A stretch of DNA of 64,000 nt from Spirochaeta lutea (GTDB taxonomy: Bacteria; Spirochaetota; Spirochaetia; DSM-27196; Salinispiraceae): positions 1 to 64,000 of the forward strand of contig NZ_JNUP01000023.1 in NCBI RefSeq assembly GCF_000758165.1, given 5' to 3'. The position numbers were made by a program, and so were the translations under genes. Position 1 is the first letter of the stretch. Each line of letters begins with the position of its first letter. Shown here piece by piece: positions 20,131-60,190 of the stretch. A model generated the notes under the pieces. That model made no database searches, was not told the origin of the DNA, and worked only from the letters and a program-made list of their open reading frames with translations.

Positions 20131-21033
20131 ATGGTAGCAATAAGCTCGGATCGGCGTATCCTATTACAATTCGAAGCCTATCTCCTAGCAGAGCTTCAAC
20201 TAGCCCGCCGTACGGTTAGAACCTATATGCGGGAGGTAAGTGATTTTTTTAGATTTCTTCATGAAACCCAGTGTGAGCTGAAGGATGTACAGGTACAAAC
20301 TATTCAGCAGTACATTTCTGTCCGGGGTGAAACTCGGTCTCTGGATAGTAGGACAATAGCAAAGGTCGTTAGCAGTCTTCGGAGCTTATTCCAATACTGT
20401 ATGCTGGAAGGAATCGTCCACGAAAATCCTGCAAACAACCTAGAGCTGCCTCGAATGCCCCAGAGGCTGCCTGGAGTCCTCCGTGTTGAGGAAATCGAAC
20501 TCATCCTGGAACAGATTGATACCACCACCCCCAACGGTCTGCGGGATAGAGCCCTGTTTGAATTAATCTATTCTTGCGGACTCAGGATATCCGAGGCGGT
20601 TGACCTGACTATGGAGAGGGTTTTTCTGGATGAACAGGTTGTCCGGGTTACTGGCAAAGGGGATAAGGAGCGGTTGGTGCCCCTGGGTGAAGAGGCTCGC
20701 TATTGGCTAGAGCAGTATCTGACCGATGGTCGTCCAGCCTTATTGCGCTCCGGAGCCTTGAATCCCTTCGTGTTTCTTAACCATCACGGCCGGGGATTAA
20801 GCCGGAAGGGAATGTGGAAGCGATTTAAAGAGTTTACCGAGCGGGCGGGAGTGCAAGCCAAGGTGCATACCCTACGCCATAGTTTTGCAACCCATCTCCT
20901 GGAGGGGGGGGCGGATCTTCGGGCGGTACAGGAGTTATTGGGTCATGCGGATATTAGTACTACACAGATCTATACGCACATCGACCGCGATGAGTTACAG
21001 GTATATCATAAGGATCATCACCCCAGGGGGTGA
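20131..21033 (+). CDS. Tyrosine recombinase of the XerC/XerD family
   Basis: This 300-residue integrase-family protein has a SAM-like core-binding domain at about residues 8-95 and a catalytic domain with the full set R152, K176, H246, R249, H272 and nucleophile Y281. Length and spacing are those of XerC/XerD, which resolve chromosome dimers at dif, rather than of phage integrases. Placement directly after ftsZ fits a role in chromosome segregation. A second Xer gene follows at 23554; which is C and which is D cannot be decided here. I found no dif site in the window. Confidence 0.9.
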   Translation: MVAISSDRRILLQFEAYLLAELQLARRTVRTYMREVSDFFRFLHETQCELKDVQVQTIQQYISVRGETRSLDSRTIAKVVSSLRSLFQYCMLEGIVHENPANNLELPRMPQRLPGVLRVEEIELILEQIDTTTPNGLRDRALFELIYSCGLRISEAVDLTMERVFLDEQVVRVTGKGDKERLVPLGEEARYWLEQYLTDGRPALLRSGALNPFVFLNHHGRGLSRKGMWKRFKEFTERAGVQAKVHTLRHSFATHLLEGGADLRAVQELLGHADISTTQIYTHIDRDELQVYHKDHHPRG

Positions 21034-23553: not shown

Positions 23554-24519
23554 ATGAGAGAGCAGGGATTAGTAGGGATAGAGGATTATCTGGATTATTC
23601 AAAACACATCCGCAAACAGAGTGAGCATACCATCAATGCCTATAAACGCGATTTAGATGCGGCCTCCCAATGGTTTGCCGACCAAGAACTCAACGATTTT
23701 ACCATCGGACACCGGGATCTTCGAGCCTACCTCGCGTTTTGTACAAACCGGGGCCTTTCTCCGCGGACAATAAACAGAAGGTTCTCTGCGCTTAGGAGCT
23801 ACTCACGGTATTGGGTTCGAGTTCGGGGAAGAGCCAAGGCCGGATTGGATGCAGCCGTGGGCCTAATACGGAGTATACGTACAAAAAAACGCTTACCGGA
23901 GTTTCTTTTTCCCAAGGAGATGGAGACCCTACTTTCGGAGAATCCCGCCGCAGAATCCAGGGGAACACAACCACCCTGGATGCAAAGCCGTGACAACGCC
24001 CTTTGGGAGATCATGTACTCTACAGGGTGCCGAGTTTCGGAAACAGCGGCTATGACCCTGGGTAGTTTTAATTCGGGTACTTCCCGAATGAAGGTCCTAG
24101 GCAAAGGACAGAAACAGCGATTTGTTTTTCTCGGTCAACCAGCGAGAGCTGCCTTGGAGGAGTATCTGGTGTACCGCAGGGCGTTCCTCCGCCGGATGAG
24201 GGTGGATCATGATTATTTATGGGTAAACAACCATGGAAATCCCCTCAGCGTCCGTGGAATTCAGTATCTTTTAGAAAAGCGTCTCCAGGGGATGAATGTG
24301 CAAAAACATTTGAGTCCCCACGGAATACGCCATAGCTTTGCAACCCATATCCTGAACAACGGAGCAGATATCCGGGTAGTTCAGGAGCTATTGGGGCATA
24401 AAAATCTCAGTACAACCCAGGTGTATACCCACCTAAACTTGAACCGGCTACGGGATACCTATAATCAGGCCCATCCCCACGGACAACGAAGAGAAAGGAA
24501 GGATCATGGAAAAACCTAA
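23554..24519 (+). CDS. xerC: Tyrosine recombinase XerC-like
   Basis: The 321-residue recombinase has an N-terminal core-binding domain (about residues 8-100) and catalytic residues R160, K184, H256, R259, H282 and nucleophile Y291, all present. It sits directly before hslV, hslU and flgB, the same order as codV-clpQ-clpY...flgB in Bacillus subtilis, where codV is xerC, so I give it the name on position. Its last 14 bases overlap hslV. Confidence 0.85.
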
Positions 24520-39933: not shown

Positions 39934-39953
39934 TTACAACCTTTTGCGCACTA
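39934..39953. repeat. Solo end of the ~100-bp inverted-repeat element
   Basis: The 20-mer TTACAACCTTTTGCGCACTA is identical to the right end of the element at 57792-57892. No matching left end or interior is found in the bases to its left, which are the 3-prime end of motB. It is either an element remnant or a chance-preserved site. It ends in TA like the other copies. Confidence 0.7.
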
Positions 39954-57712: not shown

Positions 57713-58047
57713 TTCCTAATTCTAATTCCAAAAGCGAGTTCTAGTGCCTAGGTACCGTGCGGTATAATTGGATACCTCAAACAGCTAGATCGCGCGCAGA
57801 AGGTTGTACACTACACCGGATATAGGGGAGCAATCAATGATTCCACCCATGGGCGGTGTCGCCGGGGTGCAAAGTTACAACCTTTTGCGCACTATAAAAC
57901 CTTTACGCTCGAGGAACAGACTACTGTCATTACCGTTGGTGGGCATGTTAATCAGTCAATGACTGTCTCAAGTATTGTTTTTAGCCCTTGTACGAGCACT
58001 AGGTTTTTAGGTGTGCCTGATAGGCAACCCTGGCAATAAAAATTCTG
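57713..58047. other. Gap between the CheA-like gene and the YtrA operon
   Basis: No gene is visible here. Bases 57713-57791 show only a weak AGGTA/TACCT repeat (57750-57777) and no clear terminator. The ~100-bp inverted-repeat element follows (57792-57892), then about 150 bases with nothing recognised before the promoter at 58048. Confidence 0.5.
57792..57892. repeat. 101-bp element with terminal inverted repeats (copy B)
   Basis: The ends GCGCAGAAGGTTGTA (57794-57808) and TACAACCTTTTGCGC (57876-57890) are inverted copies with 14 of 15 bases matching. The 101 bases align with copy C (60010-60109) at about 73 positions by hand, including the interior CCGGGGTG. The right end continues to CACTA, as in the 20-mer at 39934. 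No coding sequence is inside. It looks like a small non-autonomous mobile element or structured repeat. The left flank is TC, the right TA. Confidence 0.75.
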
Positions 58048-58076
58048 TTGACACCCGGTGCAAAACTGTGCATATT
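58048..58076 (+). promoter_or_regulatory. Promoter of the ytr-type operon
   Basis: A perfect TTGACA (58048-58053) is followed after 17 bases by CATATT (58071-58076, 4 of 6 to consensus). The -10 box lies inside the 19-bp palindrome described next, so a bound repressor would block RNA polymerase. Confidence 0.65.
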
Positions 58077-58086
58077 GAATATACAC
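58068..58086. promoter_or_regulatory. 19-bp operator-like palindrome
   Basis: GTGCATATTGAATATACAC is palindromic about its central G, with a single mismatched pair (C at position 4, A at position 16). It covers the -10 box and start site. The operon encodes a YtrA-type GntR regulator, so this is the likely autoregulatory operator. Binding itself is inferred. Confidence 0.65.
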
Positions 58087-58109
58087 AATATTACATCGGG
58101 GAGATTGAA

Positions 58110-58976
58110 ATGGCTATACTACATGTAGAGGGGCTTCACAAGCGGTACCCGGCATTTCACCTAAAGGATGTGTCGTTTACCCTGGAACCTGGATACATTA
58201 TGGGATTCATCGGGGCCAACGGCGCAGGTAAAACCACCACACTGAAGTCCATTGTGAATCTGGTTAAGAAGGACAGTGGTAGGGTTTCCATACTGGGAAA
58301 AGACTTCGCCAAGAACGAAATTGAGCTTAAGCAGGAGCTCGGGTACATGTTTGGCGGTGTTGATTACTATGCCAAGACAAAAATTAAAACCATCACCGAC
58401 GTGGTGCGTCGTTTCTACGTCAACTGGGATGAGCGGCTCTACCGGGAGTACATGAACCGGTTTTCTCTTGACGAGAGCAAGAAGGTATCAGAACTAAGCA
58501 GCGGAATGCGTATCAAATATTCCCTGACCCTGGCTCTATCACATCATGCCAAACTGCTTCTCCTGGATGAGCCCACCAGTGGCCTTGATCCTGTGGCCCG
58601 GGACAATCTCCTGGAATTATTCCAAGAGCTCATCGAAGACGGGGAGCGCAGTATTCTCTTCTCCACCCACATTACCAGCGACTTAGAGAAATGTGCCGAC
58701 TACATCACTTATATTGAAAACGGTCGGATTATAGAGAGCCGGACAAAAGATGATCTCATCGCCTCCTACCGTCTGGTGAAGGGCACCCAGGCTCATCTCC
58801 AGGGGTTGGTCCCAGGTCTGATCGCCTATAAGAGTAACGCCTTTGGGTTTACCGGCCTTATCCATACCGCCGATCTAGGCAACCACACCGACCTAGCCGT
58901 GGAGGCCCCATCCCTTGAGGACATCATGATTTACTACGCGAAAAAGGAGGCAGAACATGTTACATCTGCTGTATAA
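58110..58976 (+). CDS. ABC transporter ATP-binding protein (YtrB-like)
   Basis: The 288-residue ATPase has Walker A GANGAGKT at residues 35-42, a LSSGM ABC signature in place of the usual LSGGQ, and Walker B LLLLDEPTSG. It is an exporter-type subunit like those in ytr operons. ATG 58110 is used because GGGGAG lies at 58098-58103; a frame opening at 58011 covers the promoter and operator and cannot be the start. It overlaps the permease gene by 20 bases. Substrate unknown; cell-wall antibiotic stress is the usual trigger in relatives. Confidence 0.9.
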   Translation: MAILHVEGLHKRYPAFHLKDVSFTLEPGYIMGFIGANGAGKTTTLKSIVNLVKKDSGRVSILGKDFAKNEIELKQELGYMFGGVDYYAKTKIKTITDVVRRFYVNWDERLYREYMNRFSLDESKKVSELSSGMRIKYSLTLALSHHAKLLLLDEPTSGLDPVARDNLLELFQELIEDGERSILFSTHITSDLEKCADYITYIENGRIIESRTKDDLIASYRLVKGTQAHLQGLVPGLIAYKSNAFGFTGLIHTADLGNHTDLAVEAPSLEDIMIYYAKKEAEHVTSAV

Positions 58977-59595
58977 AGAATTCCGCCTTTCCATTCATCC
59001 CCTCTTTTTCCTCATCCTTCTCTGCGGTACCTTGCTGCTGATACCTCAATGGGTATTTTTTGTGGCCATGATGTACCTATTGTTTATCGCCGTGCCGAAC
59101 ATCTTTATCACCGGGAAGGCTCAGAACGATCTGGTTTTTTCGGTAATGTTGCCAGTGCGTAAGCGGGACGTGGTAAAATCACGCATCCTATCCATAGCCA
59201 TACTTCAGATCCTGCAAATTCTTGTTGCGGTCCCATTCGCGATCCTCAATATCAAACTCTACCAGGCAGAGAATTTTTTGCTGGATCCCAATTTTTCATT
59301 TTTTGGGTTTGTATTCGCCATGTATGCCGTTCACAATGTGGTTTTCTTTCCACTCTTCTACAAAACCGGGTATAAGATCGGAATCCCCTCCATGGCAGGC
59401 ATTGCTGCTGCCGTTCTTTTTGCCACCACTGTGGAGTTTGCGATACTATTTGTACCGGCCTTAAAGGTTCTGGATGGATTCGGACATCTTGCACCACAGC
59501 TCTGGCTCCTATCGGCGGGGATTTTGTTCTTTGTGATCATCAATATGGTGGCGTACCGGATCTCTGCTCGGCGGTTTACGAACATTGATCTATGA
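58957..59595 (+). CDS. ABC-2 type permease subunit
   Basis: A 212-residue membrane protein with about six helices, some broken by short loops, of the ABC2_membrane family that pairs with YtrB-type ATPases. No soluble domain is seen. It starts inside the end of the ATPase gene and its stop overlaps the regulator ATG by four bases, so all three are translated as one unit. It probably forms a homodimer or pairs with a second permease elsewhere. Confidence 0.85.
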   Translation: MLHLLYKEFRLSIHPLFFLILLCGTLLLIPQWVFFVAMMYLLFIAVPNIFITGKAQNDLVFSVMLPVRKRDVVKSRILSIAILQILQILVAVPFAILNIKLYQAENFLLDPNFSFFGFVFAMYAVHNVVFFPLFYKTGYKIGIPSMAGIAAAVLFATTVEFAILFVPALKVLDGFGHLAPQLWLLSAGILFFVIINMVAYRISARRFTNIDL

Positions 59596-59963
59596 TTGAT
59601 CTTGTCATCTCCGGCGCCTCGGATAAGCCCATATACCAACAGATAGTTGACCAGTTGAGCGGACAGATTGTCCGGGGGGAGCTTGAGCCGGGAACCATGT
59701 TACCACCCATCCGCACTGTGGCAAAGGAGTTGCGAATCAGTGTAATCACCATTAAAAAGGCTTGGGAGGAGCTCGAACACCTGGGGTTCATCTATACCAT
59801 GGTAGGGCGGGGTTGCTTCGTGGCAAACCTATCAACCAGAGAGATCAAAGACAAGCGAAGTATTCTCATGGAAGAAAAGATCGCAAAGGATATTACCTAC
59901 TACAAATCTCTTGGGGTTACATTGGATGAGATCATTGAAGCAATTAGAAAGGGTTATGGTTAG
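59592..59963 (+). CDS. GntR-family regulator, YtrA subfamily
   Basis: The 123-residue protein has a full N-terminal winged helix (residues 10-75: IYQQIVDQLSGQIVRGELEPG, then LPPIRTVAKELRISVITIKKAWEELEHLG, given in part) and only a short C-terminal dimer tail, the mark of the YtrA subfamily. It lacks a ligand domain. It probably represses the ABC operon through the palindrome at 58068-58086. A relaxed TAA/TAG stop precedes a repeat element. Confidence 0.93.
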   Translation: MIDLVISGASDKPIYQQIVDQLSGQIVRGELEPGTMLPPIRTVAKELRISVITIKKAWEELEHLGFIYTMVGRGCFVANLSTREIKDKRSILMEEKIAKDITYYKSLGVTLDEIIEAIRKGYG

Positions 59964-60009
59964 GCCTCAATTCAAGCCCCCAGGTTAAGCATCGGGTATT
60001 CAATTCTTA

Positions 60010-60109
60010 GTGCGCATAGGATTGTAAGCTACACTAGATGTAGTGACGCAACCAGGATTTCTACCCTTGGATGGTGCCGCCGGGGTGAAGAGTCAAAACT
60101 TTTGCACAC
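60010..60109. repeat. 100-bp element with decayed inverted repeats (copy C)
   Basis: The ends GTGCGCATAGGATTGTAA (60010-60027) and TCAAAACTTTTGCACAC (60093-60109) are imperfect inverted copies. It aligns with copy B over its whole length. TA flanks both sides (60008-60009 and 60110-60111), as a TA target-site duplication would. It lies 46 bases after the regulator gene. No coding sequence. Confidence 0.75.
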
Positions 60110-60190
60110 TAACTATCCAATTGGGCATAGAATTGGCTTTAAAACCGGCTGCATGGAAATTAAGTGCTTACAGGATAATGATTTGGGCAT

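Follow-up and report, generated by a model that had tools for sequence, protein, structure and literature searches.

Two diverged repeats of about 100 bp lie on either side of a ytr-type operon in the 64,000-nt stretch of Spirochaeta lutea DNA analysed here (the window, on contig C21), which raises the question of what these repeats are and whether the operon between them has any part in their history. A first-pass annotation had aligned them at about 73 of 101 positions, and blastn confirmed the pair (74 of 101 aligned positions identical, 73%, E 4e-11; 72% over 92 nt when ungapped), with true ends slightly wider than first drawn. By alignment with 50 other full copies, copy 1 spans 57790-57894 on the forward strand (105 bp between the outer edges of its terminal inverted repeats (TIRs), younger subfamily), and copy 2, which is older and more diverged, spans 60008-60111 on the same strand (104 bp). 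Neither has coding capacity, as had been stated, with no open reading frame of at least 80 aa across the core of either copy. The window has four matches to the 18-bp end GTGCGCAAAAGGTTGTAA at three or fewer mismatches, with 0.04 expected from shuffled sequence, and one of the four is a solo 20-bp element end at 39934-39953 on the reverse strand, a perfect TIR with no partner in range. Solo or truncated ends are also present elsewhere, for example at C22:32425.

Analysis of the whole genome (3.53 Mb in 69 contigs, those below ~3 kb mostly reading as N in the assembly) showed that the two copies belong to a large MITE family. Its consensus is 105 bp long and consists of the TIR TAGTGCGCAAAAGGTTGTAA, ~65 bp of variable interior in several subfamilies, and TTACAACCTTTTGCGCACTA, so that two 20-bp inverted ends enclose non-coding DNA. 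The 17-bp TIR core was found 247 times genome-wide at no more than one mismatch (119 + 128), against 0 for the reversed control, and blastn over the genome scored 40 copies among 234 first-look candidates. In 1.27 Mb read directly on both strands there were 68 full-length and 24 partial copies, a full-copy density of ~54 per Mb; extrapolated to the whole genome, this gives roughly 190 full-length copies. Using a simple ORF caller rather than a trained gene finder, 53 of 55 classified copies on four contigs were placed between genes (random positions: 16%), with 16 between convergent genes (enriched) and six between divergent genes (depleted), a bias that fits an insertion sequence (IS) tolerated away from promoters. 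Of 60 sampled relatives, 59 lacked the 17-bp core when one mismatch was allowed and one had a single match, and our literature search returned no paper on a spirochaete MITE of this kind. The first-pass proposal that this spirochaete has an undescribed MITE-like family, with old and diverged copies, is thus borne out by large numbers of dispersed, intergenic copies; the family is new, and accounts for a dominant intergenic repeat of this genome.

The same annotation had related the element to IS630/Tc1-type transposons that insert at TA, predicting dozens of copies at intergenic TA sites; the dozens of intergenic copies were found, but the target is not TA. When left and right flanks were compared, initially in 51 copies and then in 84 copies with canonical ends, identity rose in one register only, positions -11 to -3 on the left against +3 to +11 on the right, which corresponds to a 9-bp target-site duplication (TSD). 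These matched at seven or more of nine positions in 38 of the 84 copies, with ~1.3 expected from shuffled flanks, and the sequence preferred at the duplicated site is symmetric, WAANNNTTW. Each copy therefore reads TSD9-NN-TIR-core-TIR-NN-TSD9, with the TIR always set off from the duplication by two variable bases. A TA-inserting relative of IS630/Tc1-mariner would account for the CTA/TAG at the element ends and for the frequent TA beside the right end, but the TA thought to flank the repeat on both sides forms the outer edge of the TIR, is not duplicated, and lies two bases from the real duplication. Moreover, in the register of the 9-bp duplication the dinucleotides beside the two ends match at chance level only (10-12 of 51), and the associated transposase, described below, matches none of the DDE families in Pfam. 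The duplication analysis refutes this reading, and we give it practically no credence. A search for empty sites among paralogous sequences gave none that was convincing. Two nested insertions were also seen (L186, C60:239-287; L189, C68:221691-221739), in which an older copy holds the IS ends just within its TIR, and the TIR edge at these points (TAACTTTTA, TAACGATTT) resembles the target preference.

Both window copies carry this structure. Copy 1 lies between AAACAGCTA (57779-57787) and AAACCTTTA (57897-57905), which match at six of nine positions, with the variable spacers GA (57788-57789) and TA (57895-57896); copy 2 lies between TATTCAATT (59997-60005) and TATCCAATT (60114-60122), matching at eight of nine, with spacers CT (60006-60007) and AC (60112-60113). 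Two members of one family, in the same orientation on either side of a three-gene ABC/GntR operon, could be taken for the ends of a composite transposon with the ytr-type genes as cargo. However, the two copies have separate 9-bp duplications, their outer flanks do not match, the copies differ by 27% and come from subfamilies of different age, and at the density given above such neighbours are common. Since their duplications differ, the copies are separate insertions and the operon between them is not cargo; the composite reading is largely refuted and extremely improbable, and the bracketing of the operon emphasised in the first-pass annotation carries no meaning, the operon being incidental to the MITE copies.

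A longer element with the same ends and a transposase had been named as support for a mobile origin, and such an element was found, although in this genome only the C-terminus of its transposase was recovered. Several solo ends lie at contig ends, where the TIR continues into longer sequence common to several contigs. These represent two long-element ends, end A (TAGTGCGCAAAAGCCTGTAACTTTTTTGTGCCTCAG...) and end B (TAGTGCGCAAAACCCTGTAACTTTTTACAAACC...), at contig breaks such as C21:229988-230068 and those of C61, C4, C37, C1 and C22, about a dozen elements in all; the contig that holds the window itself finishes in one. The long elements are multi-copy and broke the assembly, so the parent IS accounts for the assembly breaks at its copies. 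End A encodes the transposase C-terminus (MITR)LTIYQAYHNFLEPYRIKHYRRGDTRTRAEHMGLSRDRL..., where MITR is taken from a decayed copy in C25. The transposase and both ends were not seen together on one contig, and the middle of the protein probably lies in the short contigs that read as N. A hybrid (C63:209350-209454) carries 105 bp of IS end A and continues into the right half of a MITE, and it is in this one hybrid copy only that a MITE interior resembles the IS. The case for the longer IS as parent of the MITE is strong. Other candidates were set aside: IS256-family copies (20 matches) have different TIRs, ending GTTGGTGTACAATT / GATTAAGCAACC, and DDE_Tnp_1 (PF01609) gave a single weak match. 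At contig ends of the genome there are also 14 identical copies of one IS256-family IS (L137-L150), whose TIRs are unlike those of the MITE.

Across the phylum, the transposase C-terminus had matches in 20 of 393 genomes, this one included. Full-length homologues of 380-405 aa, in many near-identical copies, are present in G002, G419, G007 and others. In the complete genome G002, from the same family, 405-aa transposases lie inside a 1397-bp IS with the TIR AGTGCACCAAAGCTTGTAA, which is clearly related to the MITE TIR, and two of eight copies are flanked by a 9-bp duplication without mismatch, offset as in S. lutea. MITEs of 131-142 bp bearing the TIR of this IS also occur in G002, and TIR pairs of 102-113 bp in G003. 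The G002 loci L275-L288 combine near-constant TIRs with very different interiors of equal lengths (131 and 141-142 bp), and are mostly without recognisable duplications. In a plasmid search a full-length homologue had no match, and the C-terminus alone had one weak, unrelated match.

No Pfam transposase model matches the parent transposase. In NCBIfam, the homologues tested (the S. lutea protein being incomplete) scored 15.8-30 bits with IS1 (NF033558; cut-off 100) and 16.8-30 bits with ISL3 (NF033550; cut-off 180), these weak matches covering the N-terminal zinc-ribbon/HTH part (E 3e-7 to 1e-2). IS1 makes duplications of ~9 bp. The differences from IS1 and ISL3 are the low scores, the single ORF of 380-405 aa and the lack of a catalytic-domain match in Pfam. 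Aligned homologues retain CPxxxC...CxxC, DG[FLM], the D in a [TS]D motif and DxxxRxD...RxT, residues whose arrangement resembles a DDE/D layout. As Pfam gave no match and the IS1 and ISL3 scores are far below cut-off, we leave the IS family unassigned; the protein points to a spirochaete IS group outside Pfam coverage, with an unusual end structure.

A larger IS with the same ends almost certainly moves the MITE, and we consider it highly probable that the MITE is a non-autonomous element mobilised in trans by this resident full-size IS. We infer that the parent transposase does the moving, and likewise where it cuts: it would recognise the 20-bp ends of the MITE, cleave ~2 bp outside the recognised end, and insert the element through a cut staggered by 9 bp at AT-flanked WAANNNTTW sites, most of them intergenic. 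The spacer dinucleotide changes faster than the element: across ten B ends that are identical for 32 bp it is GA, CA, TA or TG, so it is not stably inherited, yet closely related MITEs have the same spacer more frequently than pairs taken at random. It showed no correlation with any flank position of the target site. Most simply, the transposase would cut 2 bp beyond the end that it recognises, and the terminal bases would often be replaced. We suggest tentatively, and with more doubt than confidence, that MITE and parent constitute a new spirochaete IS family whose transposase leaves a 2-bp, non-duplicated and fast-changing spacer before the 9-bp duplication. If true, the terminal dinucleotides are carried yet often replaced during transposition, and this coupling-sequence-like behaviour is unusual for a DDE-type IS.

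The first-pass annotation had also allowed for a regulatory or terminator role, and the repeats could in principle be a family of structured RNAs, bidirectional terminators or processing hairpins kept for their RNA fold. Their transcripts are predicted to form strong folds (-47 to -51 kcal/mol, with z between about -5.7 and -7), and convergent regions and the 3' ends of genes hold many of the copies. The fold, however, is what any long inverted repeat must give, and the TIR arms show no covariation (four double changes against 3.6 in shuffles), they contain mismatches and wobble pairs in about equal numbers, and no Rfam match was found even at E 1. The target duplications show insertion, and the TIRs decay along with them: among copies ascertained by interior alone, TIR divergence increased from 5% where the TSD matched at 9/9 to 13% where it matched at 0-4/9, the pattern that transposon ends should show if they decay once inserted. 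The TIRs do diverge less than the interiors, and we considered constraint after insertion for this reason, but their divergence grows with decay of the duplication and so gives no clear sign of it. The low TIR divergence is best explained by one transposase recognising the ends of all subfamilies. A role as RNA is therefore not supported, the sequence being conserved as transposon ends, and we regard it as very unlikely for the family, although individual copies may still affect transcription. An attC or integron-cassette reading was dropped, as the copies are dispersed, in both orientations and with target duplications. The MITE thus warns against taking such hairpins for regulatory RNAs.

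Among known systems, Correia elements (NEMIS) of Neisseria are similar to the MITE in size and setting, being ~105-bp intergenic palindromes in hundreds of copies, but they insert at TA with a 2-bp duplication, and the MITE has a different sequence and a 9-bp duplication. MITEAba12 of Acinetobacter is a 113-bp non-coding element that has short TIRs in common with a co-resident IS, ISAba12, and, like the MITE, 9-bp duplications and AT-rich target sites (PMC6382973). Its TIR is of the GGCTTTGTTGC type, different from that of the MITE, and belongs to a different IS; the available text of that report mentions no spacer between TIR and duplication, where the MITE has 2 bp, and gives 90 copies in all, spread across some 31 genomes (PMC6382973). 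The single genome studied here has roughly 190.

Two further features of the window were observed. A near-perfect 21-bp palindrome, TGTGCATATTGAATATACACA, at 58067-58087 closely precedes the ABC gene, whose ATG is at 58110, and is likely an operator for the GntR/YtrA-type regulator encoded at 59592-59963. Elsewhere, two XerC/D-like recombinase genes (20131-21033 and 23554-24519) contain 107-bp stretches (20873-20979 and 24326-24432) that are 75% identical, and are paralogous tyrosine recombinase genes located close together.
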